Assembly: GCF_026151205.1 (NCBI RefSeq)
Contig: NC_087073.1
Location: 14,341,837 to 14,405,836, forward strand
DNA: 64,000 nucleotides
Source of the DNA: Bolinopsis microptera
Taxonomy: Eukaryota; Ctenophora; Tentaculata; Lobata; Bolinopsidae
Direction: 5' to 3'
Below the pieces are notes generated by a model. The model was not told where the DNA came from. It saw only the letters and a program-made list of their open reading frames with translations, and made no database searches. The stretch's first letter is position 1; every line of letters begins with the position of its first letter. This document shows positions 14,301 to 62,106 of this stretch, piece after piece. Made by a program: the position numbers and the translations under genes.

Positions 14301-17300
14301 TGACTGACTGTTTAGCATTTCATCTTGACTTGCTTCGTCGCAGACTGTTTAATTCTTCCATGCGGTTTAAATATCTAAAACAGATTCCGACAACACGAAC
14401 TATAACCTGTTGATTACAGTGGTTTCTGAACAGCGAAGGCTCACTGTATTATTATTAAAGTGGTAGGTACATTGTAATAAAGACATGTTAGGAATCCTAA
14501 TTTCCCAAATTCCTCACAACCCGTGAAATTGCATGTTTTTCAAATAACAGTGATAATGACAATACATCAACAGAAATAAAGCTAATGACGTCAGGATAGA
14601 CTGATATCAGATTGGGATGGTGTGTGCTCAGATTACCGATTGTATTGTCGTCTAATTGTTCAATGTGTTAGTGTCTGATGTTAACCTGTGTTGTTAGTCT
14701 CTGAATCTCACTATATTTGCCTGTGTTGTTAGAGCAACACTTAGCTGTCCATATTTACAATTCAAAGATTGATAAATAAGGGCTCCCCAAAACCGGCTTT
14801 GCCACTTTCCAGAACCGTACAGATATGATAACGTATTTTTAAATGATTTGTTTCTTCATTCTCGTCTCTCAGACGTGCTTCAACACGGAAAACAGGCATA
14901 CTGCTTAATAAATCTCATCATAACTCCAAAATACAGCTTTTCTTTGTCCAAATCATTGATTACTATTTTTCAAGTATTCCTAAGTCATTGCTGAGAGCTC
15001 CGACAAGGAAACACTTTACCGTTTGTTTACACAAAGTATACCACATTACACTGAATATCACACCAGATCACAGTATGTATATTGTTTGACATTCTCCGGT
15101 GTGTGTAATACTTGCGTTTCCTGACTAGACTGTTTGATTTCGTACTTTACAGTAATTTCAATGCTCCTTCACAGCCCATCTCTCCAGTAGGTCCAGGCAC
15201 GACGAGATGAACATGTTACTGATATCTTGTTACTGATATCTTGTTACTGATATCTTGTTACTGATATCTTGTTACTGATACCTTGTTAGAGTATGATATG
15301 GAAGACATAATACTGATAACGCTCCGGGAAAATGACTTGATCCGCGTGGATAAGAAGATACTAACAGAGAATGGAACTGTGTTCGAACACTTGATAAATG
15401 AACTGGGTCACAAGCAACTTGAGATGGACGACTTTGATCCAGGTACGGTGAGACTGTTTATAGAAAGTCTTGCAGAGAAAAGGGTAGAGTACATTGAGGA
15501 GACTGATTTTAGGGACCTTCATAAACTGTCTGTAGTGTTTGGGGTCTCGTGGCTGATTGAGTACAGTAGGAAATGGTTGAAAAGCAGAATAGTTGAAATA
15601 AACGATTCTACAACAAATCAAAGAAAAATGTTCTTATACGAAGAGTGTTTCTTTATCTGTGACAAATGGAAACTATTCTTATTTGTGGACACTCTTATTT
15701 TGAAACTGAGGTTTATGGACAACACATTAATGCTCTCAGAACTGATGAGTCATTCTGGATGTTTGAAGACAAATCACCTAAAATATTTACTACATTTAGC
15801 TGGGAGTGACACTGGTATTTTCCTACAGATCATGATTTTTCAGATTAATATTCAGCAATCTGTTGACGAAAATACCAGATTCCTACTACAAAATCTTAAT
15901 CTGCCTCTTTGTATTCAGCGCGATGAAGATTTGTATCACGAACTGTTTGACCGGTTATCTCAATCATCCAAAACATCAAACGATGATCTGAAAATGGCGC
16001 TAGCTCTGACAAATGAAGCAACAAAACAGGTACTAGGCAACAGAAATAGTCCCACAGGTGATGATTTGACGGTGTATGATTCTAGAAAATGGTTTGATAT
16101 TGAGAAGAGATGTGACAACTTAATGATGATATACGTGTGTGTGGTAGAGGGGATGGTTACCAGTATGTATGATGTTATTGAAATGTCAGCAAGGGTTGTA
16201 ATGCAATCAGAACCCAGCACGGAGGAGGTTGACGAGTTTTTTGAACAGTTAGAACACTCAGGTGAATCTTTGCAGAAAGTTTCAAATTCTTATGTGGCAA
16301 TCATAATCTCGGCCTTGAAGTTTACTAATTTTAGTAGTCGTAGGGAAAAATTACAGCTGGTAAGATTATTAGAAATGTTCAACGGAAGTGAAAAACTGTC
16401 AGCAAAATTCAGTCAAGTTCAGATAATCGGAGAATTAACGAAAGGATCCTCACTGGCGACGTCTCTTAAAAGTATGATGAAAATCAAAACCCAAGAAAAG
16501 TACATTTTCAAATACAAGCACCCCGGACTAAAAGATTGCGAGAGAGAAGGACACTGTGGATTCATGCTAAAATTCAACAAAGAGAACGCAACTTATGAGT
16601 TATCTCAAAATCCAAGTGACTACCAGAACAGGAGTATTCACACGCACGATATTTTCAAAGCAGGAAAGATGAGTTGGTACAGTTTGGAGCACGGAGAATC
16701 TCGGTTAGGAAGCAAAACAACTCTACCTAAACGGTGGAGATGGGGGTGGTTTGAGTGGGGGTTTAAGTGGTTCAGGAGGGAGGATGGGCTGTATAACATA
16801 CTCTGGCAGAGTAATCGAGAACAGTTCTGTGTAGATTATGATATTAGCGACCATTTAGCAGCCAGGTCTTAAATCGAATGTGTGAGTAGTAACCTTTGTG
16901 TAAGTAACTTTTCTCCAACTTTGGTAGCTACTGATTTTTTTAATATTTGAAATTTTAAATGTACCATAATATCTATAGTTCACATCGCGTTTTAAACCAT
17001 AACAGATATATTTGTCTTACTAACATTAAACAGGTTCAGTGTAAGTTAGTTCCCACACAACACTAACCAGGAGAGGAGAGTTAACATTAAACAGGTTGTG
17101 TAAGTTAGTTCCCACACAACACTAACCAGGAGAGGAGAGTTAACATTGAACATGTTCAGTGTAAGTTAGTTCCCACACAACACTAACCAGGAGAGGAGAG
17201 TTAACATTAAACAGGTTGTGTAAGTTAGTTCCCACACAACACTAACCAGGAGAGGAGAGCTAACATTAAACAGGTTGTGTAAGTTAGTTCCCACACAACA

Positions 17301-18995
17301 CTAACCAGGAGAGGAGAGCTAACATTAAACAGGTTGTGTAAGTTAGTTCCCACACAACACTAACCAGGAGAGGAGAGCTAACATTAAACAGGTTGTGTAA
17401 GTTAGTTCCCACACAACACTAACCAGGAGAGGAGAGCTAACATTAAACAGGTTGTGTAAGTTAGTTCCCGCACAACACTAACCAGGAGAGGAGAGCTAAC
17501 ATTAAACAGGTTGTGTAAGTTAGTTCCCACACAACACTAACCAGGAGAGGAGAGTTCAGCCCACCCAGTAAAGTGGTAGAGAGTCTGGACCAGGTCAGCT
17601 AACATAACATTCTTACACTCGCGTATAGCCACTCCGGTACTGATACACTCCATTACAGCGAGGAGTTTACCTTGCTTCTGTACTTCACGCGTCACACTGC
17701 GGTTACAGGGGTTAGGGGTGAGAGTGGCCTGCCTACTAAAGTACGCTAATTATTATTTATTACTGGCGTAAAAAAGCATTCTTATAAATAGATTTCACTG
17801 CGTGTGGATGGGAATGTAAACCTAATTCTTAATTTGTTTTGACACGTGAAAATCTTTTTGGGAGCTGACTTGATAAAATTTTCAACATTCCAACACAAAC
17901 TAACTTCACCTTCCCACCAGTAGTTCAATGCAAAATACGCGACAAACAGCAGCACTCTGACAGCTAACCTGTAAAGGTGTCTGGCTCGAATGTGACCCTG
18001 CATCTTACCCCACCCTTCCTTAGCCTCCCTAGCTCCTTTCATCGCTTCAGCAATACTCCCCCCGTTTGTTGGGATGTGTGTGATCAATTTATCAGTGGAG
18101 ATGTTGGTAACCGTCAACATTTCTCCTGATCCAGGACTCATCTTGTTCATCACAAAGTCTCCTAGTTTCTGTGAGTTGATCCACGCCATGGCAGCAGCAT
18201 CTGATTCCTTTGCTGAACTGTACTCCAGATTCTTGAAGATAGCTTTCTCCTGCGGTTTGAAGGTCCTAAATAACTCCAGTATTTACTGTAGAGAATCAGA
18301 GATGTTAATTGTTGAAATTTAATGTGATACTAATAGCAAACTGTCGTTTGTGTAAATGATAACAGCAATATAATTGTATGCTGAGAGGGGGGGGAGGTGA
18401 GCCATATTCGTTTTAACATCTATTCAGCTTCCAGCAGGGACCAATAAACTCTTAGAATCACTGTCATGTTCCAAAGTTCGGTGTAAATATGGCTCTCCTC
18501 CCATAGGTAAACAAGTCAAAACTCTTTTGACGAGTAGAAAGCTAATAATTTAAAATGAAATAGTGATAAATATTAAATTAAACGAGCTCTACTTCCATAT
18601 TTCTTACCTTTGAGACGAAATGTCCGTTCTGTTCATCTTCATTAGCCATGATGATATCTGGCAGCTGCTTGTTCATGCTCACATTCTCATCACTGAACCC
18701 TGTCGCACCAACCTGTTAGTTAGACACTTAGTTACTTAGTAGTTAGTACTCTGTACTTACTTGGTAAACCCTGTTAGTTCTAATCTCACGCCACGTGACA
18801 TGACGTCATTACTCAATTACTGGCATTGAGATTGTAACATTGGCATCAGGAGCAAATGCTTAGTGTATATTTGAATGTTTGCTTTGTAATCATGATATTT
18901 TGATGAATAAACAATTTACAAAGCACTAAAATATACTGCTCCATTACCTTTTTGTCAGTTGCTTGTCTTTTGGAAGGGGGAGATTCGCTAGACAT
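1656..18995 (-). CDS. ALDH16A1: ALDH16A1-type aldehyde dehydrogenase family protein, 16 exons, 850 aa
   Basis: Exons (minus strand, joined by splice phase): 18995-18948, 18712-18608, 18273-17969, 17696-17542, 14199-14120, 13858-13715, 13367-13166, 12667-12465, 12324-12109, 11985-11805, 11661-11580, 11452-11285, 11185-11050, 4196-3969, 2066-1940, 1828-1656. They total 2553 nt with no internal stop; human ALDH16A1 has 802 residues. Residues 62 onward (EKAIFKNLEYSS) match the family N-terminus. Domain 1 contains PALAAGNCVVVSP; the truncated second ALDH domain contains VGVIGITAPAQWP and AIAAGNTVVVLPS, and the C-terminus VQAVWYFGY matches the family. At the active site, the canonical GQxC reads GQAY (Tyr350) and the ELGGK glutamate is Ser316, so domain 1 should be catalytically dead. 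The first 51 residues are an extension relative to human. The exon 2/3 junction is the least certain, because the nearer AG would place an in-frame stop. Start chosen at 18995, 9 nt after a splice-like AG. Confidence 0.9.
2067..2870. other. ALDH16A1 intron 14, 3' part, no gene
   Basis: AT-rich intron sequence between exons 14 and 15. The stretch 2630-2800 is rich in GTGA/GATG-type words resembling an old, decayed minisatellite. I see no coding signal. Confidence 0.5.
2871..3596 (-). mobile_element. Penelope-like element fragment with GIY-YIG endonuclease
   Basis: A 241-codon open frame carries a Cys-rich linker (CSINSCKICP) followed by VVYKIKCKLC and LYVGETSRKVHARVGEHL. That is the GIY-YIG endonuclease arrangement at the C-terminus of Penelope-like retroelements, with the late acidic/Asn motif around KIFEAMFMINLNPTIN. 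The reverse-transcriptase part expected upstream (higher coordinates) is missing, so this is a 5'-truncated copy. It lies in intron 14 of ALDH16A1 in the same orientation as the host gene. The first codon of the open frame is TTG, so it is not a natural start. The endonuclease frame itself is undamaged. Confidence 0.8.
4197..5299. other. ALDH16A1 intron 13, distal part
   Basis: No gene recognised. At 4818-4866 there are several copies of ACACGTGA-like words (E-box CACGTG cores) in tandem. At 5080-5140 a short frame reads PCPPGTYNC, reminiscent of ephrin-receptor-like Cys-rich repeats, but it is too short to call. Confidence 0.4.
5300..6558. mobile_element. Foldback DNA element with poly-G/poly-C ends, TTAA target duplication
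   Basis: The left arm (5347-5833) is repeated in inverse at 6024-6542 with high identity. The left end is a 47-nt G run and the right end a 16-nt C run. TTAA flanks both sides exactly (5296-5299 and 6559-6562). The central 190 bp contains a second, smaller palindrome around TTTGGCGGCCAAATT. There is no transposase. TTAA duplication is known for piggyBac and Kolobok elements; the purine-rich 5' end would fit Kolobok better, but this is inference. Confidence 0.85.
6563..7948. repeat. Intron 13 sequence with poly-C tracts
   Basis: Homopolymer C runs at about 6790-6817 and 7064-7086 break otherwise unremarkable AT-rich intron. The second run is flanked by two GGACGTGTCC words. I see no gene. Confidence 0.5.
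7949..8383. mobile_element. Short TIR element with poly-C end, 7-bp target duplication
   Basis: The left end (GGGGGGATCA near 7955, then CGTACGTGACGT near 7978) is matched in inverse at the right end (ACGTCACGTACG near 8321, TGATC followed by a roughly 33-nt C run). GACCCAG flanks both sides (7942-7948 and 8384-8390). The interior repeats GGTACTAACTG three times (8041, 8098, 8121). No coding capacity, so a non-autonomous element. Confidence 0.7.
8485..8668. repeat. Two short degenerate tandem repeats upstream of the nested secreted gene
   Basis: First about four copies of an 18-20-bp CCATCGTTCAGGATC-like unit, then two and a half copies of a roughly 55-bp unit starting AATAGTCATTTACAGTTCCT. 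They lie within 100-270 bp of the start of the nested gene, so they may be part of its promoter region. Confidence 0.5.
8755..10857 (+). CDS. Secreted Cys-rich protein with ephrin-receptor-like and sushi domains, nested in ALDH16A1 intron 13
   Basis: Exons joined by phase (all phase 1): 8755-8806, 9090-9215, 9368-9778, 9922-10062, 10270-10461, and a possible tiny last exon 10844-10857. This gives about 311 residues. Exon 1 is a signal peptide (MVQFNLFEVLLLIAISQ). Exon 2 has a Cys pattern with CQQCPDGTLANQNNTDC. Exon 3 (411 nt) encodes a Trp-rich, roughly 137-residue domain that I do not recognise, perhaps a beta-sandwich. Exon 4 (PCGPGTF, CVPC, CSPC) resembles GCC2/GCC3 ephrin-receptor-like repeats. 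Exon 5 is a CCP/sushi module (VTVSCEEGFLLRG, GTFPSCKA). The last exon is weak; without it the frame stops at 10535. The gene lies wholly inside an intron of ALDH16A1, on the opposite strand. An extracellular or innate-recognition role is only a guess. Confidence 0.65.
10858..11049. other. Intron remainder, no gene
   Basis: AT-rich sequence between the nested secreted gene and exon 13 of ALDH16A1. Nothing recognised. Confidence 0.4.
12668..13165. other. ALDH16A1 intron 7, no gene
   Basis: About 500 bp of intron containing CpG-containing words around 12780-12860. No open frame or repeat of note. Confidence 0.4.
13982..14043. repeat. Perfect 22-bp inverted repeat with 18-nt loop
   Basis: ATAAGCGTTACAAAGTAAAC-GA at 13982-14003 is repeated exactly in inverse at 14022-14043 within ALDH16A1 intron 5. 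It could form a stable hairpin in DNA or pre-mRNA, or be the remnant of a tiny foldback element. It does not match a known RNA class. Confidence 0.8.
14200..15213. other. ALDH16A1 intron 4, stretch before the nested BTB gene
   Basis: AT-rich intron with no recognisable gene. Short duplicated words (TGACTGACTGACTG near 14299) are the only repeats. Confidence 0.4.
15214..15283. repeat. 14-bp tandem repeat directly before the BTB gene
   Basis: Five copies of TGTTACTGATATCT (the last with one change) end 15 bp before the likely start codon of the BTB-like gene. They could be promoter or 5' leader sequence. Confidence 0.85.
15298..16872 (+). CDS. BTB/POZ-like protein, intronless, nested in ALDH16A1 intron 4
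   Basis: A 524-codon open frame begins at ATG 15298; the frame is open to 15283 but only via TTG. Residues about 1-100 have the BTB/POZ pattern: a start like DIILITLRENDLIRVDKKIL, then FEHLINELGH, FDPGTVRLFIESL and DLHKLSVVFGVSWL. A helical BACK-like stretch follows. The C-terminal 120 residues are Trp-rich (RWRWGWFEWGFKWF) and not recognised; they may be a ligand or partner-binding module, as in Cul3 adaptors, but this is inference. The gene lies inside an intron of ALDH16A1 on the opposite strand. A splice-like AG sits 8 nt before the ATG, and an out-of-frame ATG lies at 15292. It could be a retrocopy or a lineage-specific BTB family member. Confidence 0.75.
   Translation: MEDIILITLRENDLIRVDKKILTENGTVFEHLINELGHKQLEMDDFDPGTVRLFIESLAEKRVEYIEETDFRDLHKLSVVFGVSWLIEYSRKWLKSRIVEINDSTTNQRKMFLYEECFFICDKWKLFLFVDTLILKLRFMDNTLMLSELMSHSGCLKTNHLKYLLHLAGSDTGIFLQIMIFQINIQQSVDENTRFLLQNLNLPLCIQRDEDLYHELFDRLSQSSKTSNDDLKMALALTNEATKQVLGNRNSPTGDDLTVYDSRKWFDIEKRCDNLMMIYVCVVEGMVTSMYDVIEMSARVVMQSEPSTEEVDEFFEQLEHSGESLQKVSNSYVAIIISALKFTNFSSRREKLQLVRLLEMFNGSEKLSAKFSQVQIIGELTKGSSLATSLKSMMKIKTQEKYIFKYKHPGLKDCEREGHCGFMLKFNKENATYELSQNPSDYQNRSIHTHDIFKAGKMSWYSLEHGESRLGSKTTLPKRWRWGWFEWGFKWFRREDGLYNILWQSNREQFCVDYDISDHLAARS
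17021..17554. repeat. 59-bp minisatellite repeating the ALDH16A1 exon 4 splice donor
   Basis: Nine head-to-tail copies (59 bp; two early copies have a 2-bp longer variant). The copy nearest exon 4 joins it directly: on the minus strand every unit reads CTCTCCTCTCCTG followed by GTTAGT. That is the last 13 exonic bases plus the donor of exon 4 (17542). Copies are nearly identical. Confidence 0.95.
18386..18502. mobile_element. Possible small MITE with ~17-bp inverted ends
   Basis: GGGGAGGTGAGCCATATT at 18391-18408 and AATATGGCTCTCCTCCC at 18486-18502 are inverse copies with one or two mismatches. The element lies in intron 2 of ALDH16A1. No clear target duplication was seen. Confidence 0.4.
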
Positions 18996-47191: not shown

Positions 47192-47258
47192 ATGGCAGCA
47201 GTAGAAATCATGAATGTTGTCCCGTCGGCAATACTCGAACAAGAGCTATCATTGGAAG
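47192..47258 (+). CDS. Possible orphan first exon
   Basis: ATG 47192 opens MAAVEIMNVVPSAILEQ and continues to a phase-1 donor (GGAAG followed by GTGAAT) just before the tandem array. It has coding-like character in non-coding surroundings. Any partner exons would have to lie across the array or the transposon nest, and I found none. It may be the relic of a gene disrupted by the array. Confidence 0.25.
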
Positions 47259-47264
47259 GTGAAT

Positions 47265-48412
47265 TCAGCGGACTAATTATTATTTACCTTGTTTTATATT
47301 GTGATAATATAATGATGATATTTACAATTTGAGTTTCCAATGAATACAATTTTGTACGTCAGTCCGAATTTACAGAAAATAGTAACTATTAATCTGTATA
47401 GTTTAAATAAAAGTTATAACACTACATACCTTCAGATAGTTCTGTCGCAGAACAAAAAGAATTCGGAGAGGGAGAGTATGTTGACATATCCTTAAGTTTT
47501 TAGAAGGTAATATAAAGTCCTTCACTTTGTACCATGTTTTATATTGTGATAATATAATGATGATATTTACAATTTGAGTTTTCAATGAATACAATTTTGT
47601 ACGTCAGTCTGAATTTACAGAAAATAGTAAATATTAATCTGTATACTTTAAATAAAAGTTATAAAACTACATACCTTCAGATAGTTCTGTCGCAGAACAA
47701 CTCACAAATAATTCGGAGGGGAGAGTATGTTGGCATATCCTTCAGTTTTTAGAAGGTAATATAAAGTCCTTCAATTTGTACCATGTTTTATATTGTGATA
47801 ATATAATGATGAAAGTTACAATTTGAGTTTTCAATGAATACAATTTTGTACGTCAGTCTGAATTTACAGAAAATAGTAACCACTAATCTGTATAGTTTAA
47901 ATAAAAGTTATAAAACTACATACCTTCAGATAGTTCTGTCGCAGAACAACTCACAGATAATTCGAAGAGGGAGAGTATGTTGGCATATCCTTCAGTTTTT
48001 TAAAGGTAATATAAAGTCCCTCACTATTTACTTTGTTTAGTATTGTGATAATATAATCCCTATAATGATGAAAGTTATAATTTGAGTTTTCAATGAATAC
48101 AATTTTGTACGTCAGTCTGAATTTACAGAAAATAGTAACTATTAATCTGTATAGTTTAAATAAAAGCTATAACACTACATACCTTCAGATAGATCTGTCG
48201 CAGAACAACACACAAATATTTCGGAGAGGAAGAGTATGTTGGCATATCCTTAAGTTTTTAGAAGGTAATATAAAGTTCCTTACTATTTTGTATTTACGTT
48301 GTTAAGTATTGTGATAATATAATGATGATATTTACAATTTGAGTTTTCAATGAATACAATTTTGTACGTCAGTCTGAATTTACAGAAAATAGTAACCACT
48401 AATCTATATATA
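47265..48412. repeat. ~250-bp tandem array, left block (5 units)
   Basis: Head-to-tail units of about 249-259 bp, each containing TTCAATGAATACAATTTTGT, GTCAGTCTGAATTTACAGAA and CTTCAGATAGTTCTGTCGCA. Every unit aligns with ATPSCKMT from the end of exon 3 (46355) to within exon 4 (46612). It keeps an acceptor-like CCTTCAG and a donor-like GAAG followed by GTAATAT. The block breaks off at 48412 where a mariner-type element starts. Confidence 0.95.
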
Positions 48413-50051
48413 CAGGGTGGCCCATAAGTGACTACCCACACGCAACCTCTTAATAACTCACGTAATTCGTCTCCAAATTGCACCAAAATTTCAGAGATTA
48501 TAGATATGGGTCAAACTTAGATTTCCTGAAAGTTTCGCAAGCCACGCCCAGTTACAGTGGGCGTGGCGTGACACTCCCTCTTTTTCACTATTGTCTTCAT
48601 AAAATGAGAACGCTTTAACCTAAGAACTCAAAATTTTTTGCACACATTTGGCTTGATAATTGAAAACTTTTCCCAAAGTTTCAAGTTCATTGGTTAAAAT
48701 ATGGCTAAGTTATGACCATTTTAAAATCCATCGGATATGTGATCCGAGCACTCAGTCAGTGATATTTGCACTCAATTAGTGATCTCGTCACCCAATCTGA
48801 TCAAGAGTAAGGCGTTAGCGTGTATTAATGAGGTTCATTAGGCTTTGATTGGATACCGATGATGACTTTGCTAGAAAGGGAAACACAAATTTTTAGGATA
48901 AAAACCAGATCGTGACCTTTTCAGGAAAAGCCGTTCTCTCCACCACTTCATCCGGTCTAGTAGAGCCCCAGTGAATTGCATTCTGGGAGTTGACATATCC
49001 GTTTATATGGCCTTGTCGCTGTACCAGATTTCGTCCTCAAAGTAGGGATCCACATTCTGCTTGGACAGGAATGTGTTGGCGAAATCTATCCTCGATTGGA
49101 AATCACGGTCCAAAAGTTTGTGTTTCTTTGTGATTCGGTAGGCCCGGTTAGAAAGGTCTTGCTTTAGGATTCGCTGAAGGGTTCTGCTGATGTCTAAGGC
49201 AGGAGCTCGTTTCTGGGTGCCAATCTTAGGTGTGTCCATCACGTCACCAACAACCATCGTGATGTTTTCTACAGTCCTCGCAGTTCGTCTTCTGCCGACT
49301 CTTCGCCGATCGTGTGCAGAAAACGTAAACTTGATCTTGTGATGAATGTCAAAGCAGCTTTTCCGGCAAGGGGGTGGTCGGTTGAATTTCATCTGAAATT
49401 GTCGTTTAATCTGAGGGTAGAACTCCCCATTTTCTTTCTTCAGGTAGACGAACAATCGTTGTTCTGCAGTAAAGGGAGGATAGTGAACCATTTTCGATGA
49501 TTCAATGGATGGTTCATTCCTTTTTATTGATTGTAAGGAACCTGTGACTAGCAGGGCTAACAAGCCCTGAAATGGTGACACCACCATAAATTCGTGTGAT
49601 AGCGTTTTAGGCGCAGTCAGCTGTATAGGCCGGCCCATAAGCAGGCTGCAACCAATCAAGCGGTGCATGTGAGCCAAACAGGCCATTAACCAAGTGACGA
49701 GATCACTGACTGAGTGCTCGGATCACGTATCCGATGAGTTTTGAAATGGTCATAACTTAGCCATATTTTAACCAATGAACTTGAAACTTTGGGAAAGGTT
49801 TTCAATTATCTAGCCAAATGTGTGCAAAAAATTTTGAGTTCTTAGCTTAAAGCGTTCTCATTTTATGAAGACAATAGTGAAAAAGAGGGAGTGTCACGCC
49901 ACGCCCACTGTAATTGGGCGTGGCTTACGAAACTTTTAGGAAATCTAAGTTTGACCCATATCTATAATCTTTAACATTTTGGTGCAATTTGGAGACGAAT
50001 TACGTGAGTTATTAAGAGGTTGCGTGTGGGTAGTCACTTATGGGCCACCCT
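48413..50051. mobile_element. mariner/Tc1-type element with ~360-bp inverted arms
   Basis: The ends CAGGGTGGCCCATAAGTGAC and its inverse (GTCACTTATGGGCCACCCT) are flanked by TA dinucleotides. The arms 48413-48790 and 49690-50051 are inverse copies at high identity. Between them is a truncated transposase reading frame on the minus strand (49491-49003). It separates the left array block from the 9.4-kb TIR element, and appears to have landed at the very edge of that element. Confidence 0.88.
49003..49491 (-). pseudogene. Truncated mariner-type transposase
   Basis: From ATG 49491 the frame has an N-terminal helix-turn-helix-like region (FTAEQRLFVYLKKENGEF), a GRRRTART linker typical of mariner/Tc1 proteins, LDISRTLQRILKQDL, and then reaches the first catalytic aspartate (EIWYSDKA) where it stops. 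The canonical DE dipeptide there is DK. The rest of the DDE/D domain is absent, so the protein cannot be active alone. Confidence 0.75.
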
Positions 50052-52853
50052 TAGGGAATAATGCAAAATTCCGGGAAAAAATTTGCGACAAGCTGATTTT
50101 TACAGGAATATGTTGTCCATAGTGTCAGGAACCACCCCAAAGAGTTTCCAATCTGGATCTGTTGAGCAAAAAAAGTTACAGCCAATTTTCTTTGGGCGCG
50201 TATGTCAGCCTGAGGACTGCACTTGAAAAACTCGTAACTATCGTAATAAAGACCCCCAGGAGCACCATAGGGGGTGCAAAATGACCGAAATAGTGACATT
50301 ATGTGGGGCGAATCAGTGTTTTAGGGTCGTCAGATCTTTACTTATTGAGATAATTTCATTTTTATAGGCTAACCTCTCAAAAATTTACAAAAATTTTGAA
50401 ATTTTACTTAAATTTGGAAATTTAGCAAAATTGTTGTACAATTAAAACATTGTCTAGTTATCAGTATTCAAATTCTAAAATTTACTTTCAATTGTCAATT
50501 GATCCTTATAAATAATATACATATCACATCAAATTCTGTAAAAAAAGGTCCTGAATTATTAGCATGGTGTCTTTGATTGGCAACTATTAGGTCACTTCTG
50601 GCTATCCCATTTCCTCAGAGTTGTTTGATTCTCCTGAATCGTCCTGTCTTTCGGGTGCATTAGTGCAACTTAATCCATGACATTGGCCACATGCAGGTAG
50701 ACATTTAAAGCCATACTTCCGGCAGGAACACCTAGTTAAGTACTTACAAGGGTTCTCAACCTCCACCGAGCAATTGCAGCAAATGAGGTTGAGCATCCCT
50801 GCCGGGGCAATCGCAGCTTTAGTCGGGATTGGCCGGTATTATCCTTCAGAACTCATCTCCCATCCATAATGTAGTGGATTTAGACTTGCAGTGTCGAGTG
50901 TCACCCAGTTATGGTACTGAAGATATGATCTTAATATATGCTCAGTTGCAGAGGATGTAGACGGTGGTAGCCTTGATGGGTTGAGTTTTTTCTTTGCTAT
51001 CATTCTACTGTAGCTGAGAAATCTGAGAGTTTCGAGTGCCTTGGTTTTATCTCCATAGATATGTTGAAACAAGGAGAGGCCAGCTTCAATTACTTCATTT
51101 GTTGAAACTCTCACAGAGAGTAATGATGCTAAATGACCCTCCTCATGAAAAGAAACTGCCTTTTTCAATATCTTCACCTTACCAAAGCCATGTATACTGC
51201 TGACCGTGTCACATCCTGAGAAACTGTGAACAAACAGTAATATGCGTTTTATGTTGGCATCAAGAGCATTTACTATTTTACTGATCGAGTGTGAGCCGTT
51301 TCTGGTCGTCATCACAATTTCATTGTGATTCTCAGTAAAATGATGAATAAGGAGGCAAAGTATATAATCAAGTATCTGACTGAAAAGCCGCACAATGTTT
51401 TGAGTATACGAGGTTTGTGATGTTATTTGGGTTTATTGGGGTCTATAGATCAAAAAAAATTTGGGTAGACAAAAAGTTATGTGTCCACCAGGTCTGTGGC
51501 CACGCCCTTTTATATGATCGTGGGAAAATCTTACCTTTTCCTAATATAAATTCATATTTGCTCAATCAAAGCAAGTAGGGTATCAAAACCAATGTTTTGT
51601 GATCCAAGAAATCGATTGGTGATATCTATTTTACTTTCAGACCATTCCTAGATAAGATAACCACGCCCATATTTACAATTGAGCGTCAAAATTCCCAAAA
51701 TGTAAGCAATGTTTTTGGGCAAGTTGGGTGTTGAGACCTATGTTTTTTGACCCGAGAAATCGATTGGTGATATCTATTTGACTTTCAGACCACTCCCAGA
51801 TAAGATAGCCACGCCCATATTTACACTCGAGCGCCAAGAATTCCCAAATACTCATGGATCTGAAGACATTCCCGTCTATATAACTTCCGCCCCGGAGTTT
51901 GAGACTTGGAATAGCTCAAGTGACCCATCAGAAACAAATTTGGTCTGGGTAGAAATTGTGGCTATGGTGCAGTTTTGCGCAATTGACCACGCCCTTTTTT
52001 GGCACTTTTGCGACTTTAAAATCAAAATAACTCCGCTTCTAATTGGAATTAAAAGCTCAACTTGGCTGTAAAGTTGTTCAGAATTATCACATTTAGGGGA
52101 TAGAGCATGATTTTAAAGTCACTAGACATAAGGTTGTTGAGTAATATGACCACACCTTTTTTTTTCTCTCGCGAGTCATAATTTGCATGTACTAAATACC
52201 AGATATCTCGGCTTCTGATTGAGCTAGGTGCTAATCCGGCCTCCGGGCATTAAAAAGTTCAAAATCATCAGTTTAAGTTGGGTAGAGCATAATTTCAAAG
52301 TTATCAAAGATCAGGTTGTTGAGTTTTTTGGCCAAAACCTATTTTAACGCTCTTGCGAGTAGCAATTGCAGCGCTTAAAATTAAAATTACTCAGCTTCTG
52401 ATTGAAGTTAGGAGCTAAACTCGGGCAGCAAAATGGTCAAAATTATCATATGGAGTGGGGTAGAACGTGGTTTTAAAGTCCTCAGACATCAGGTTGTTGA
52501 GGTATTAGGCCACACCCTATTCTTACGCTATCGCGAGTAGCAATTGCAGCGCTTAAAATTAAAATTACTCAGCTTCTGATTGGAGTTAGGAGCTAAACTC
52601 GGGCAGCAAAATGGTCAGGATTATCACATTAAGTTGGGTTTCAAAGTCCCCAGTCATCAGGTTGTTAAGTTGTTAGGCCACACCATATTTCTAAGCACTT
52701 ACTTGCAACAATTACAACACTCATTAAAAGTATGTCGGCTTCTGATTGGAGTTCGGTGCTTAGCCTGGACATGAATATATTTAGAATTAGAGCAGTATAA
52801 GGGGAGTAGAGGCTAGATCATGGCTCTACGTGATGCCTGAGTACTCTATTCAG

Positions 52854-53118
52854 GGGCTATGTGGCCTAGTGGTTAGAGCATCCACCTTCTGCGCAGAAGG
52901 TTCAGGGTTCGAATCCCAGTGTCACCTAGTCTAGGGAGTAGCTAAGGATCCATTGGATCTATGCGATCTCCTTGGTCGACTCAGCCGAATGATAGGAAAC
53001 TTAATTGAGAGTTAAATGAGGAGGGGTACCTGCTAAAAGTTCAAGAAACTTCCTAGGATACCCCTTCAGTGCATACTGTAAACATAGTGCTATTACTATT
53101 ACTATTACTATTACTATT
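52854..53118 (+). mobile_element. tRNA-derived SINE
   Basis: Begins with a tRNA-like head carrying an A box (TGGCCTAGTGGTTAGAGCA, from 52862) and a B box (GGTTCGAATCC, about 52909), with a plausible anticodon arm CTTCTGCGCAGAAG. An unrelated body of about 160 bp follows, and it ends in a (TTACTA)n tail at 53090-53116. It sits in the interior of the 4.4-kb palindromic element. Confidence 0.8.
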
Positions 53119-53302
53119 CAATGCGAAGCTTTGATCATTTTGATGTCCAAGATAAACACTCAACTCCAACCAGAAGCGGAGATATCTTAGTATTTCATTA
53201 TGAAATGCTGTTATCACGAATGCGTAAACTACTAATACTACTACTACTATATCGGAACTAAGTCCGACCTACGCCAGATAATCCCCTCCATATATCCCTG
53301 TT

Positions 53303-54410
53303 CACAGTGGGCTGTGAGTGGGGGTCATGCTAGCATAGGGTATTTTAGACCATCACACATGCCCCTAACTTTGTTTCTAAGGTAATTTGGGTACAAAAAT
53401 ACGATTCCAATCATTTACAGGGCCGAAAATGACTCAGAAAAAATTTTTGGGCCGATTTTGAGCAATCTTGTAGTCCAAAAATAGGAGGCTGATCCCAGGA
53501 AAAGTTGTTTTTTTAGAGGTTTAATCAATTTTAAAGCTCTTTTATGAACTGTAAACGAAGGACAGCTATCTTAGGAACTCGAATCTTTTTGAATTATGAA
53601 AAAATATTGATCAGAACAAAAGTTGTGCCCATTTATATGACCAAAATTTTCTGAAACACCAAAATTGTTCCTGTTATTTTCAAAAATTTCGTTTAAAATC
53701 ACGATTTTTTGGATTTTTATCAATTTTAACTATAATAATTGTGATATTTTGATTTTTCATCCATATGCATCTGGTCTAGGATGCAAAAAATGCCACAAAC
53801 ATGGAGAATAACTAAAATATGTCAATTTAATAGCAAAATTGAGCTCATAAATTATCTAAAAATGCAGCAAATTTTACCCAATTTTTGAGTTTCTTAATTT
53901 TGTAAACAGAGTTGCCCAAAAGTGCCCAAAGTGATTCTTATTGCATCTGATAGGGAATTGTCTAAGCTTTCTGATGATACCATGCATTATACCGAACTAT
54001 TGCAAACCAACAACGATTTCTGTCGTTAAATACCCCAAAAATTGCTTAAAATACACGCCATAAAAAAGGCGCGGTCAAAAATCAGGTGAAAATGTTAAAG
54101 TCACACAGTTTTTTTAGATGGCTGAGTATTCTTAAGTACTATACTATATTTCAATTATTAAAAACTGCCTTGATCAGGCATTTTAGCCCAAAATAATAAA
54201 TATTAGGCAATTTTTGGCTAAAAAAGGCAAAATTTCTTGACAGTGAAAAATGCTATTTTTTCACGCGACGCCATTTTGGCATCTTGCAAAGTTTTTAATT
54301 ACGGTTTCTTGCATGAAATCGGGCTAGCGTTTTACAATAAGGAAAGCTTATTTTCAAAGAAATTTAAGAAAGTCGATTTTAGGCCTATGCTAGCATGGTA
54401 GCCCACTGTG
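53303..54410. mobile_element. 1.1-kb TIR element inside the 4.4-kb element
   Basis: The imperfect ends CACAGTGGGCT...CATGCTAGCATAGG (left) and CCTATGCTAGCATGGTAGCC followed by CACTGTG (right) are inverse copies. CTGTT lies immediately outside both ends (53298-53302, 54411-54415), a likely 5-bp target duplication. The interior is AT-rich without a usable frame. Confidence 0.7.
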
Positions 54411-54609
54411 CTGTTCCGCATCAGAGTTCGCAGTTCCTCTTTAGAGTTTGTCCCAACTTCCATCAGTAACATAGACACGTAGCTTTGTCTTGGTCGTGTA
54501 AAGGTTATGGTCTATTAACTCAGCAACCTGATACCAGAGGACTTTGAGATCACTACTCAATGTGATAGTTATGAACAGAATAAGCATGTTAATGGCCAAA
54601 TTCAGCTTC

Positions 54610-54750
54610 GAACAAGGGTAGACCGAGGGCAGGATTTGCGACCGAGGCCGGGGCCGAGGCAAACCGAGGAATTGTCCTCCTGACCGAGGCCGAGGAAAAA
54701 TCGCTATTCCTCGGTAAAACCGAGGCCGAGGACTCGGTCGACGGTCGACT
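54610..54750. repeat. ACCGAGGCCG-type low-complexity repeat
   Basis: Irregular copies of ACCGAGGCCG over 140 bp, ending in CGGTCGACGGTCGAC. Much more GC-rich than its surroundings. Confidence 0.7.
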
Positions 54751-56764
54751 CTTGGCTTCAAACTCCAATCAGAAGCCGAGTAATATTGATTTTAAGTGCT
54801 ATAATTGCTACTGGCGAGAGCGTAAAAATAGGTTTTGGCTTAATACCTCAACAACCTGATCTTTGAGGACTTTGAAATTATGCTCTACCCTACTTAAACT
54901 GATGATTTTGAACGTGTTAATGCCCCGGATAAGCACCTAGCTCAATCAGAAGCCGAGATATCTGGTATTTAGTGTACAAATTATGACTCGCGAGAGAAAA
55001 AAAAGGGTGTGGTCATATAACTCAACAACCTGATGTCTAGTGACTTTAAAATTATGCTCTACCCCCCTAAATGTGATAATTCTGAACAACTTTACAGCCA
55101 AGTTGAGCTTTTAATTCCAATTAGAAGCGGAGTTATTTTGATTTTAAAGTCGCAAAAGTGCCAAAAAAGGGCGTGGTCAATTGCGCAAAACTGCACCATA
55201 GCCACAATTTCTACCCAGACCAAATTTGTTTCTGATGGGTCACTTGAGCTATTCCAAGTCTCAAACTCCGGGGCGGAAGTTATATAGACGGGAATGTCTT
55301 CAGATCCATGAGTATTTGGGAATTCTTGGCGCTCGAGTGTAAATATGGGCGTGGCTATCTTATATGGGAGTGGTCTGAAAGTCAAATAGATATCACCAAT
55401 CGATTTCTCGGGTCAAAAAACATAGGTCTCAACACCCAACTTGCCCAAAAACATTGCTTACATTTTTGGGAATTTTGACGCTCAATTGTAAATATGGGCG
55501 TGGTTATCTTATCTGGGAATGGTCTGAAAGTAAAATAGATATCACCAATCGATTTCTTGGATCAAAAAACATTGGTTTTGATACCCTACTTGCTTTGATT
55601 GAGCAAATATGAATTTATATTAGGAAAAGGTAAGATTTTCCCACGATCATATAAAAGGGCGTGGCCACAGACCTGGTGGACACATAACTTTTTGTCTACC
55701 CAAATTTTTTTTGATCCATAGACCCCAATAAACCCAAATAACATCACAAACCTCGTATACTCAAAACATTGTGCGGCTTTTCAGTCAGATACAGGATTAA
55801 TATCAGTATCCTCTGCTTTTACCTCAACATCTTCGTAGAAGGACAAGTTTAAAGCTTTACTAGCTAGGTCATGGTATCAGCATCATCAGTAGCTACATGC
55901 ACTTCAATTCCATGTTCTGTAAAAACGTTCGACAGAAGCTTTATAAGCTCATGCTTGTTCTTTGAGTTGCTGAACAGTTTTTTCATCGGAACTGTGCACA
56001 CAGTAGTACTTTTAATAGCTATATCATAGCAGTATGCCTTGATTCTTCGCTGATGCTCATGATCTTTTGTTGATCGGGCATAGCCATCAAACACAACAAT
56101 CACTTTCCGCTGTTCCAATTTCGGAACTAGCTTAAGGTATTCATTAGCTATGTCGCCGTATGTTTCAAAGCCTGTGAACGAGGTAACTTGATAGAGTAGC
56201 CATCCACCATCAATTATTAATGGGGAGGATGGGTTGCTAAATGTCACAGTACAATCAACAACATTCTTGAGGTATTGTCCAAGGGCTGCCTTGTTTGCCT
56301 TTCTCATCATCTGTTAAAAAGACTCATCGGCATTGCTGTGAGCTCATATTGCAAGCTTTCCTTCAGTGTAGACTCTCGTTCAGATGCGAAGACAAGCCGA
56401 TTAAAAATTGTCAATGAGTCTATAACAATGTCTTTTTCGTTCACCCTCACTGTCCTCTTTAGAAGGGTCAAGTGTCCGACTTTGCCTTTAATTAACTCGA
56501 AACTTATCGATAAAGCTTTTGCCATCCAGCTCTTTCTGGAGGGCAGTACCAACGGAAATGCAATCTTCTGGGTTGACATTATCTTTCTCTTTCTGTGATA
56601 TGAGACCCGTTGAGTACGATAGCATTTTAGTCTTGTCTTCAGATTCGTCGAAATCAGCTGTATCTTTAAACCAACACAACAGCTTGGTAAACACTGCAAT
56701 ATTTTTCTGTACAGAAGATTTGCTAAGATCTGAGTATTTAGCACTAGAGGCTTTTGTTGTTGTT

Positions 56765-57836
56765 TGTAAGAACCCCCGGATCTGACGTTATCCAAGACCG
56801 GACCTTACCCTGATAGTACGCCCTGGACCGGCGTACATCGGTTGTCATGGTAACATCGGTTGCCATGGTTACAGAAACCCGACCTGACGGCCACACCAGC
56901 CAAAAGCTGAAGTGTCGGTAATTAGGATCTCGCCAAGGATTCACCGCCAATTGGGTGTTAAGATAACGACCCATACCACTATGGTAATTGGTCTGATAAC
57001 GGACCAAGCGCAGCCAGCCCTGGTAACAATCTCTCAAGCCACCGCTAGCGACCTGTGAACCACGTGTCACGTCGCATCACTTCTCTTGGACCGATCAAGA
57101 ATACGTTACGCTTTTCCTCTCGTGACTTAAGATGGAAGTATCCGGAAGGACTTGACCACCTTGATGAACTCTGCCGATCTCTCTGGACCTCACTCTCGAG
57201 CGGCTGATGATGATACACCACTGTCGCAGTACTTCCCGGAGTAGCCACCATGTTGAACCTTGTCGGATTCTACGCCTCTAAGCTTCACCAGAGATCTAAC
57301 GACCACCGGAGTGAGTACTCCTAGAAGGCTTTAGGATTAGAACTTAAGTTAAATTATTATGACGATATTACGATTATATATATCCATTGCTTGGTATAAT
57401 TACCTTGATGTCAGAAGCTATATTCTGGCCCCCTAAATAGGCGTACCTTACTGGTGTTATTATATAAATCAGTGACCACAAGGGTCACCAGCCAGGAGCA
57501 ATCCTGTGCTGCAAATTGTCATTGAAATTACGTTAAAATAACAACACTACTAATACGGAATGATGCCGTGTCTCTCGGAGGCTTTCGAGTGCCACTAAAT
57601 TAGTGGAACGTTACGAACCCGAGACCCTGGTGGAACCTGAAGGAGGACATGATGCAGGTAAGTATTGACCCGCTTGCCCGGGCTATCCAGGTTTGATCAT
57701 GTTTGGGAGCTATAGGAAAGCTTCTATGGAGCCTTAAATAAACTCTCCGCCCTAGGTTGTTTGACGTGTTATTCCAGGCCACCTTTTGTAGTTCACAGCC
57801 AGTTTAACGACGGCTGGGCTCTTACATTGTTCTTTT
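56765..57836. mobile_element. 1.07-kb TIR element inserted in the PIN-like gene
   Basis: The left end TGTAAGAACCC and right end GGGCTCTTACA are inverse copies with one mismatch. TTGTTGTT before and TTGTTCTT after suggest an 8-bp target duplication (7 of 8). The host protein frame reads through when the insert is left out. The interior has no recognisable gene. A hAT-type relationship is possible from the 8-bp duplication only. Confidence 0.7.
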
Positions 57837-59448
57837 ATTGGATAAGTCTGCAATAGCTTCATCGACACTCTCGTTTATCAACGCCATTTGATTGAGGGTT
57901 GCAGTCCATAACTTATGGGCAGATTCATGAGTTCACATTCTCCATCCAGACAAACCCCCTGATGACTTTGCAGCCTTCATTAGTCGCTGTTCGATCGACA
58001 GGTCTGTCCACACACCAGACCACTCGTGTTCATTATATCGAACTGTGTGCAGACCTACGACCTTGAACGTTTTGACTAGTGCCCCATACTGAATCTCAAG
58101 TACGGTAATCTGCTCAAGATACAGCCGTAGAGCTTTGGAGTACTGACCTCGACCTGCTGCTGCAAAGATAGGCAACATCTTAGCCACAATTGCAAGATGT
58201 AGATCGAAGTCATGTAACCGTTCTGCTCTTATAAAATCTTTTATTAGGCAAATGAAACCATGATAAGTTGTCTAAAGGGCAGCTGTGCAGCTGTTCGACG
58301 ATAACATCTCGAACTTCTTTTTTATACGCTCTGATAACTCTTGTACGACTCTGGTCTTGTGGTTAACACCGAGTTTTTCATTGCTACACTTGGCAATGTA
58401 GCTAGCCATATCTTCAAGATCCTCCTCTGCTATTTTGTCCTCAAATAAATAGCAGCAGAGAGCACAATCTATTAAAAAGTGGGCCCTCAGTGCTTTGTAA
58501 TAGGATCCACCGTCCATTATGTGAGTTACATCCCCAGGGTAGACTAATCTCATAAGGTCTTCCTGTCCGGAGTCTGCCATGATATAACCCACACACCCCA
58601 AAAAGCTTTTCAGGGTGTGGAAGCCTCCCATCCTAACAATAACTGGCATTCTTTTCTCGAGAACTATCCGACTAGCCTTCAACCAAAGTGGTAAATCGAA
58701 GGTGATTACCATCGGTTTGGTTGAGGCTGTCTTCAAGCACTCAATAAGTGTTGTATAGACTGTTGAGTAGCTGTCTGGGGGTTGATCGATTATCTGCAGG
58801 AACTCAATTTGTGATCTGGCCTTCACATTGGGCTTATGCAGCGATTTCATGAAACCTTTCCAATTGACGGGAGGATTGGCAGGGGTAAGTTTCATGAAAA
58901 TGAGCCACGCTGCATAAAAAGCGGTGTCTCCATGGCAAGAGGTATCATAAACAAACTTTCGCTGTAGTTTATCAAATGGCCTTAATGTGACTGTGCTTAG
59001 ACCATTTTCTTTGAGCCATATCCGTACTTGGCTTCCATAACATCCCCACTACAACAATTTTCGCAAAATTTCCAAATTTAAGTAAAATTTCAAAATTTTA
59101 GTAAATTTTTGAGAGGTTAGCCTATAAAAATGAAATTATTTCAATAAGTAAAGATCTGACGACCCTAAAACACTGATTCGCCCCAAATAATGTCACTATT
59201 GCGGTCATTTTGCACCCCCTATGGTGCTCCTGGGGGTCTTTATTACGATAGTTACGTGTTTTTCAAGTGCGGTCCTCAGGCTGACATACGCGCCTGAAGA
59301 AAATTGGCTGTAACTTTTTTTGCTCAACAGATCCAGATTGGAAACTCTTTGGGGTGGTTCCTGACACTATGGACAACACATTCCTGTAAAAATCAGCTTG
59401 TCGCAAATTTTTTCCCAGATGGTCCTGTATTAATGTTAATTGTCCCTA

Positions 59449-62106
59449 ACTAATATACTTTAAATGAAAGTTATAACACTGCATACCTTCAGATAGTTCT
59501 GCTGTCACAGAACAACACGCAAATAATTCGGAGGGGACGAGTATGATGGCATATCCTCAAGTTTTTAGAAGGTAATATAATGTCCACCACTATGTACCTT
59601 GTTTTATATTGTGATAATATAATGATGATATTTACAATTTGAGTTTTCAATGAATACAACTTTGTACGTCAGTCTGAATTTACAGAAAATAGTAACTACT
59701 AATCTGTATACTTTAAATAAAAGTTATAACACTACATACCTTCAGATAGATCTGTCACAGAATAACACACAAATAATTCGGAGGGGACGAGTATGATGGC
59801 ATATCCTCAAGTTTTTAGAAGGTAATATAATGTACACCACTATTTACCTTGTTTTATATTGTGATAATATAATGATGATATTTACAATTTGAGTTTTCAA
59901 TGAATACAATTTTGTACGTCAGTCTGAATTTACAGAAAATAGTAACCACTAATCTGTATATTTTAAATTAAAGTTGTAACACTACATACCTTCAGATAGA
60001 TCTGTCGCAGAACAACACACGGACAATTCGGAGAGGAAGAGTATGTTGGCATATCATTCAGTTTTTAGAAGGTAATATAAAGTCCCTTACTATTTACCTT
60101 GTTTTATATTGTGATGATATAATGATGATATTTACAATTTGAGTTTTCAATGAATACAATTTTGTACGTCAGTCTGAATTTACAGAAAATAGTAACTACT
60201 AATCTGTATACTTTAAATGAAAGTTATAACACTACAAACCTTCAGATAGATCTGTCGCAGAACAGAAAGAATTTGGAGAGGGAGAGTATGTTGACATATC
60301 CTTAAGTTTTTAGAAGGTAATATGAAGTCCTTTACTATTTACTTTGTTTAGTATTGTATAATGATGAAAGTTACAATTTGAGTTTTCAATGAATACAATT
60401 TTGTACGTCAGTCTGAATTTACAGAAAAAAGTGACCACTAATCTGTATACTTAAAATAAAAGTTATAACGCTACATACCTTCAGATAGTTCTGTCACAGA
60501 ATAACACACAAATAATTCGGAGAGGAAGAGTATGTTGGCATATAATCCTTAAGTTTTTAGAAGGTAATATAAAGTCCTTTACTATTTTGTATTTACGTTG
60601 TTAAGTATTGTGATAATATAATGATGAAAGTTACAATTTGAGTTTTCAATGAATACAATTTTGTACGTCAGTCTGAATTTACAGAAAATAGTAACCACTA
60701 ATCTGTATAGTTTAAATAAAAGTTATAACACTACAAACCTTCAGATAGATCTGTCACAGAATAACACACAAATAATTCGGAGGGGACGAGTATGATGGCA
60801 TATCCTCAAGTTTTTAGAAGGTAATATATAGAAGGCCTATAATGTACACCACTATTTACCTTGTTTTATATTGTGATAATATAATAATGATATTTACAAT
60901 TAGAGTTTTCAATGAATACAACTTTGTACGTCAGTCTGAATTTACAGAAAATTGTAACTACGAATCTGTATACTTTAAATAAAAGTTATAACACTACAAA
61001 CCTTCAGATAGTTCTGTCACAGAATAACACACAAATAATTCGGGTGGGACGAGTATGATGGCATATCCTCAAGTTTTTAGAAGGTAATATAATGTACACC
61101 ACTATTTACCTTGTTTTATATTGTGATAATATAATGATGATATTTACAATTTGAGTTTTCAATGAATACAATTTTGTACGTCAGTCTGAATTTACAGAAA
61201 ATAGTAACCACTAATCTATATATACTTTAAATGAAAGTTATAACACTGCATACCTTCAGATAGTTCTGCTGTCACAGAACAACACACAAATAATTCGGAG
61301 GGGACGAGTATGATGGCATATCCTCAAGTTTTTAGAAGGTAATATAATGTACACCACTATTTACCTTGTTTTATATTGTGATAATATAATGATGATATTT
61401 ACAATTTGAGTTTTCAATGAATACAATTTTGTACGTCAGTCTGAATTTACAGAAAATAGTAACTATTAATCTGTATACTTTAAATGAAAGTTATAACACT
61501 ACAAACCTTCAGATAGATCTGTCGCAGAACAGAAAGAATTTGGAGAGGGAGAGTATGTTGACATATCCTTAAGTTTTTAGAAGGTAATATGAAGTCCTTT
61601 ACTATTTACTTTGTTTAGTATTGTATAATGATGAAAGTTACAATTTGAGTTTTCAATGAATACAATTTTGTACGTCAGTCTGAATTTACAGAAAAAAGTG
61701 ACCACTAATCTGTATACTTAAAATAAAAGTTATAACGCTACATACCTTCAGATAGTTCTGTCACAGAATAACACACAAATAATTCGGAGAGGAAGAGTAT
61801 GTTGGCATATAATCCTTAAGTTTTTAGAAGGTAATATAAAGTCCTTTACTATTTTGTATTTACGTTGTTAAGTATTGTGATAATATAATGATGAAAGTTA
61901 CAATTTGAGTTTTCAATGAATACAATTTTGTACGTCAGTCTGAATTTACAGAAAATAGTAACCACTAATCTGTATAGTTTAAATAAAAGTTATAACACTA
62001 CAAACCTTCAGATAGATCTGTCGCAGAACAGAAAGAATTCGGAGAGGGACGAGTATGATGACATATCCTCAAGTTTTTAGAAGGTAATATGAAGTCCTTT
62101 ACTATT
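59449..62106. repeat. ~250-bp tandem array, right block (10 units) with higher-order period
   Basis: Continuation of the array at 47265-48412. TTCAATGAATAC recurs at 59646, 59896, 60146, 60385, 60645, 60908, 61158, 61413, 61652 and 61912. Spacings are 239 to 263 bp. The spacing series repeats with a period of 1267 bp (60146/61413, 60385/61652, 60645/61912), a higher-order repeat of five units. Confidence 0.95.

Follow-up and report, generated by a model that had tools for sequence, protein, structure and literature searches.

The window examined here is a stretch of 64,000 nucleotides from the ctenophore Bolinopsis microptera (contig NC_087073.1, positions 14,341,837 to 14,405,836), in which a unit of about 9.4 kb, bounded by terminal inverted repeats (TIRs) and containing a nuclease gene, occupies positions 50052-59452. 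This unit is a defective, decayed, non-autonomous transposon copy, and we consider it, with a probability of about 80%, to derive from an Academ-like DNA transposon of the cut-and-paste type (AcademX lineage). While the original prediction had taken the nuclease for the only gene of a candidate undescribed type of transposon, the gene is probably a leftover of a known kind of transposon, and not the sign of a new class. The parts of the unit, numbered by residues of the fuller protein described below, are as follows (TSD, target site duplication).

50052-59452, minus strand: probable Academ-like defective element, from its arms, its ends and comparison with fetched siblings
50070-50430, plus strand: left inverted arm, 361 nt
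59059-59419, minus strand: right inverted arm, 97% identical to the left arm
57828-59015, minus strand: transposase-like part, residues 375-770, with two in-frame stops
56767-57827, no strand: insertion of about 1.06 kb in the gene, with no counterpart in siblings L002, L003 and L010 over the same residues
55799-56766, minus strand: linker, followed by the N-terminal half of the nuclease (FEN/XPG-like), residues 769-1091, in a disrupted frame
51365-55799, no strand: nested TIR element, 4,435 bp, termini TAATCAAGTATCTG...CAGATACAGGATTA, TSD ATA
50605-51363, minus strand: C-terminal half of the nuclease (SGCDTV) and cysteine-rich tail, residues 1091-1342
59453-59455, no strand: right copy of a putative 3-bp target duplication ATA, inferred from the array unit

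As originally described, long inverted repeats enclose a gene that reads from right to left, its fragments following one another on the minus strand between the arms. The acidic motifs first noted (DGG, KD, DDAD, EDTD and GCDT) were all located in the window, as DGG (56217-56200), KD (near 56073), TDDADT (55890-55873), AEDTD (55816-55802) and SGCDTV (51219-51202), together with VFDGY (56097) and the C-terminal cysteine cluster (50784-50680). The nuclease is not, however, the whole gene content, as the segment 59015-57828 encodes a transposase-like part with T-D (ITFDLPLW, 58706-58683), MGGFH and EQ (LSIEQ, 58001-57987) motifs. The window copy is without residues 1-374 of the fuller gene, and the DNID position (residue 312) is missing from it. 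Positions 481 and 716, two of the three transposase acidic positions, are retained, so that this copy does have the second part of the transposase-like domain, even if it is hard to spot by eye. Pfam scans of the window pieces returned no significant family.

The fullest copy in the genome (C7:12447076-12454769, L001/L016) is 7,694 bp long and contains, between its arms, a stop-to-stop frame of 1,342 residues. Its transposase-like half carries DNID (312), TFD (481) and EQ (716), and in the same frame the nuclease carries IIDGGW (953), VVFDGY (993), TDDADT (1062), EDTDIL (1087) and SGCDTV (1139), followed by cysteine clusters from residue 1284. The earlier statement that no DDE transposase is visible must accordingly be revised, since this sibling has a transposase-like half of which the window keeps a part. 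The 1,342-residue protein gave no significant family in a Pfam scan, and only chance hits with phmmer against the PDB. A point against the Academ-like reading is that the first Met of this frame is residue 117; translation may begin in an exon farther upstream, where short frames with cysteine pairs are present. In a genome search, residues 1-374 were matched in full by the C7 copy itself and nowhere else, with six further matches that are weak and partial; a missing match in this search is no proof of absence.

Searching the genome with the arms gave 40 scored hits of 204 candidates. Thirty of the 40 correspond to the window and to 15 fetched elements with both ends, i.e. 13 single loci and two split pairs (L001/L016 and L014/L015); the other 10 were not fetched. 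The fixed-length target duplication to be expected of a mobile element was found in the form of an exact 3-bp TSD, varying in sequence, in all 15 fetched elements (for the split pairs, AAC/AAC and CAT/CAT were taken from the printed flanks). In addition, the same gene lies, in parts, between the same arms in 14 of the 14 elements whose interior was read (the 13 single loci and L001/L016). This recurrence, and the fact that families with other termini carry a homologous gene, make it scarcely credible that the nuclease gene is cargo captured by another element, to which the arms would belong, even if nested insertions are able to trap genes, and even if the 11,460-bp L014/L015, whose interior was not read, has no match listed to residues ~375-632.

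All 13 single-locus siblings begin at residue 356 or later, so that they are without residue 312, and yet they have TSDs. One deletion junction is common to the window, L002 (TSD TCT) and L017 (TSD TAG); because the latter two carry TSDs of their own, a form lacking the first acidic residue has spread, and the defective copies were probably moved in trans. In ten of the 13 single-locus copies (L004-L013), the 3' part of the gene beside one arm is repeated inverted beside the other, so that the extended arms reach about 830-1,910 nt, compared with about 615 nt in L003 and about 369 nt in L002 and L017. Template switching between the arms during gap repair would explain these foldback-like derivatives.

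The same domain order was found in eight further proteins (L018-L022 and L028-L030), with open frames of 1,438-1,569 aa and 19-22% identity to the 1,342-aa protein; inverted repeats are present in all eight, and the cysteine tail is lost or replaced in L018. With termini chosen by eye, a 3-bp duplication was read in eight of the 11 other-family copies tried (L019, L021-L024 and L029-L031, the count leaving out L025-L027 and L032), while L018, L020 and L028 had no readable TSD, which counts against the Academ-like reading. L031 has TAGTTAGGGA termini in common with the window family, yet its protein is closer to that of L022. The intact 1,438-aa frame of L022 (C5:1988974-1993287) is found again at C12:13744356-13748669 with a 100% match as rounded, which suggests recent activity of this type.

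Comparison of the sequences supports the FEN/XPG-like nature of the nuclease. The positions D955, D1066, D1088 and D1090 do not vary among 12 sequences, and D1142 (GCD) is conserved in at least 90%. Because the single host exon bearing XPG_I matched the nuclease profile only weakly (probability 3.4, P=0.013), FEN1-like proteins from genome contigs were used as the reference: at least 120 stretches matched the pattern, and those with an open frame of 300-420 aa and an EGEAQA motif were kept (103 used, 17 dropped). Among the 80 records listed they are mostly archaeal, and one of those used, L048, is labelled Chloroflexi. Against this set, the IDG, FDG, DxD and GxD motifs of the nuclease profile were aligned residue by residue (P=0.0022, probability 13%), and with match columns only the score was 36.4 (P=0.00095). 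The controls scored 20.1 (reversed FEN1 profile), 18.7 (transposase part) and 25.0 (best of 60 block-shuffled FEN1 profiles), and none of the 60 shuffled profiles scored as high as the real one. Viral contigs scanned with the host XPG_I-bearing exon, and then with the nuclease profile, gave no relative. As regards the cysteine tail, the Tesmin/TSO1 CXC model matched it in seven of 12 members (best E=5.2e-6), and a comparison with the PDB returned LIN54 (E=0.0015).

Several observations weigh against these assignments. The hhalign probability with FEN1 is just 22% (match columns), the EGEA motif is in imperfect register with (D/E)(D/E)AD in the FEN1 alignment, and the FD of VVFDGY is replaced in L028-L030. 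The Pfam XPG models had no match in the proteins scanned, and the CXC model had none to the tail of the window's own family. The original description of the nuclease as PIN/FEN-like is supported in that the domain is FEN/XPG-like. Compared with the FEN1/XPG 5' nucleases, the domain shares the order of the acidic motifs and the G-x-D motif, and differs in being embedded in a transposon protein and in being without a Pfam XPG match.

The transposase-like part may be an RNase H-fold DDE transposase domain. A D/D/E pattern (DN-D / T-D / EQ) is conserved across the family alignment; L026 has N at the second acidic position, and for L001, whose first D falls out of register in the alignment, that residue was assigned from the DNID motif. 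Seven of 11 members were matched by the DUF6589 model with E values of up to 1 (best 6.6e-5), and over the genome the model gave two weak matches, below its cut-off; no mention of DUF6589 was found in the literature searched. The transposase profile had only chance hits in the PDB, and none of the curated transposase models scored above cut-off in the whole proteins scanned. To be set against a DDE domain is the fact that the assignment comes from motifs. Furthermore, DUF6589 does not reach its curated cut-off in any of the whole proteins scanned, and on whole L020 its match (649-927) takes in EQ (885) but starts past T-D (631).

The Academ superfamily and AcademX reportedly go back to Kapitonov & Jurka (in 2010) and Kojima (in 2020). 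The Academ nuclease is of XPG type, and TIRs, which are general to DDD/E DNA transposons, are a feature of Academ as well. In published work, Academ is counted among the DDE/D superfamilies (PMC10294476) and listed as a DDD/E superfamily (PMC9587614), Kapitonov and Jurka 2010 is cited for it (PMC4455052), and AcademX is given a TSD of 3 or 4 bp as opposed to 9 or 10 bp for AcademH, a difference tied to the encoded nuclease or helicase, respectively (PMC10045372); PMC5718144 makes no mention of Academ. A DDD/E transposase, an encoded nuclease and a 3-4 bp TSD being published features of AcademX (PMC10045372, PMC9587614), the idea of an undescribed type was not borne out. With AcademX, the element shares the encoded nuclease and the 3-bp TSD (PMC10045372) and may share the DDD/E type, and no difference has been established, although the window copy is without the first part of the gene. 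AcademH belongs to the same superfamily by published classification, but has a helicase and a TSD of 9-10 bp (PMC10045372) as against 3 bp here; no helicase model was present among the Pfam hits of the six long proteins scanned. KolobokE, KolobokD and KolobokP likewise combine a DDD/E transposase with an accessory nuclease, but the nuclease folds are different (lambda-exonuclease-like, DnaQ and His-Me finger; PMC9587614).

It should be noted, as a point against membership in AcademX, that it is drawn from likeness to the published description of that lineage. The element might alternatively represent a separate, undescribed DDE superfamily that acquired a FEN/XPG-like nuclease independently and merely resembles AcademX, as could be argued also from the failure of every curated transposase model to exceed its cut-off in the whole proteins scanned, the DUF6589 match included. 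We consider this unlikely, as both TSD length and encoded nuclease agree with published AcademX (PMC10045372), and in bivalves Academ elements, with a mean length of 5,565 bp, rank with the longest (PMC10294476).

Selection was estimated from the ratio of nonsynonymous to synonymous substitution rates (dN/dS) in five pairs, which are not independent, as they come from two groups only (L018/L019/L021 and L028/L029/L030); two of the seven pairs (L019/L020 and L001/L026) were saturated and gave no ratio. The nuclease had a dN/dS of 0.05-0.15 and the transposase part one of 0.06-0.14, and therefore the nuclease is kept by purifying selection to a degree comparable to the transposase part; it is the more constrained of the two in the L018 group and the less constrained in the L028 group. 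For the tail, values were 0.07-0.54, the two highest belonging to pairs with L018, whose tail is replaced. The proposal that the gene may encode the enzyme which mobilizes a transposon class of its own is supported in that the gene is a TIR transposon's own and its nuclease is under selection in intact relatives, but not as regards a new class. That the nuclease alone mobilizes such a class could be argued from the TSDs of the 13 siblings without residue 312, but appears very improbable: in the fuller copy and the eight intact relatives the frame also encodes a conserved transposase-like part, whose constraint is comparable in the five measured pairs, and an exact 3-bp TSD is the mark of staggered strand transfer, whereas FEN-type nucleases do not join strands.

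In its fullest form, the Academ-like element has long inverted arms, termini reading TAGTTAGGGA and a single large gene coding, in this order, for an N-terminal region, a putative DDE-type transposase domain, a FEN/XPG-like 5' nuclease and a cysteine tail (CXC-type in other families). The DDE domain would cut and join with a 3-nt stagger, the nuclease would act on flap- or Y-shaped strands, trimming or cutting them at the element ends or in the course of repair, and the N-terminal region and the tail would bind DNA. A fuller copy such as C7:12447076-12454769 may have mobilized the window copy in trans, before the latter decayed. A more specific role, which we find doubtful, is that of second-strand cutter: at the element ends the DDE domain would cut the 3' strands, leaving the 5' strands to the nuclease, so that the element would be freed without a hairpin, and the nuclease would help to set the 3-nt stagger. 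TnsA and TnsB in Tn7 split strand cutting in a similar way. Such a role is conceivable given the selection on the nuclease, and given that TSD length in Academ lineages has been tied to the nuclease or helicase they encode (PMC10045372).

A nuclease gene of this type can look like an "orphan" and yet be a remnant of an Academ-like transposon. One genome here offers several intact families under selection, along with defective copies probably moved in trans, and such families would allow the role of the nuclease in transposition to be tested.

As to the ends of the window element, its true termini, which read TAGTTAGGGA, are situated beyond the arms; on the right the element ends at 59452 (sequence read on the minus strand), while on the left a second, adjoining TIR element (48411-50051) truncates the terminus at 50052. 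The fetched siblings have TAGTTAGGGA at both ends, then end-specific spacers, then the common 361-nt arm. The element was rightly said to interrupt a tandem array, as it sits inside an array of ~250-bp units (47192-48410 and 59454-62097). The right flank of the element starts ATATACTTT, while the array consensus is TAATCTGTATA followed by GTTT or CTTT; from this comparison ATA is the likely duplication, its left copy being obscured by the 48411-50051 insertion. Minus the nested element and the ~1.06-kb insertion, the unit measures ~3.9 kb, and sibling L002 measures 3,922 bp. The nested element shares 82-83% identity in its arms with L020, which stands for a family of this same kind of transposon, and the interior of the nested element matched none of the five family proteins tried. 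The ~1.06-kb insertion has short inverted ends, GTAAGA...TCTTAC.

The adjoining element at 48411-50051 has 368-nt arms (CAGGGTGGCCC...) and a 239-aa open frame on the minus strand, and is possibly Tc1/mariner-like, judging by eye; its family is large, with 1,065 first-look candidate places in the genome (40 scored). Elsewhere in the window, a 59-bp unit is repeated nine times in tandem at 17020-17554, with 97% matches.

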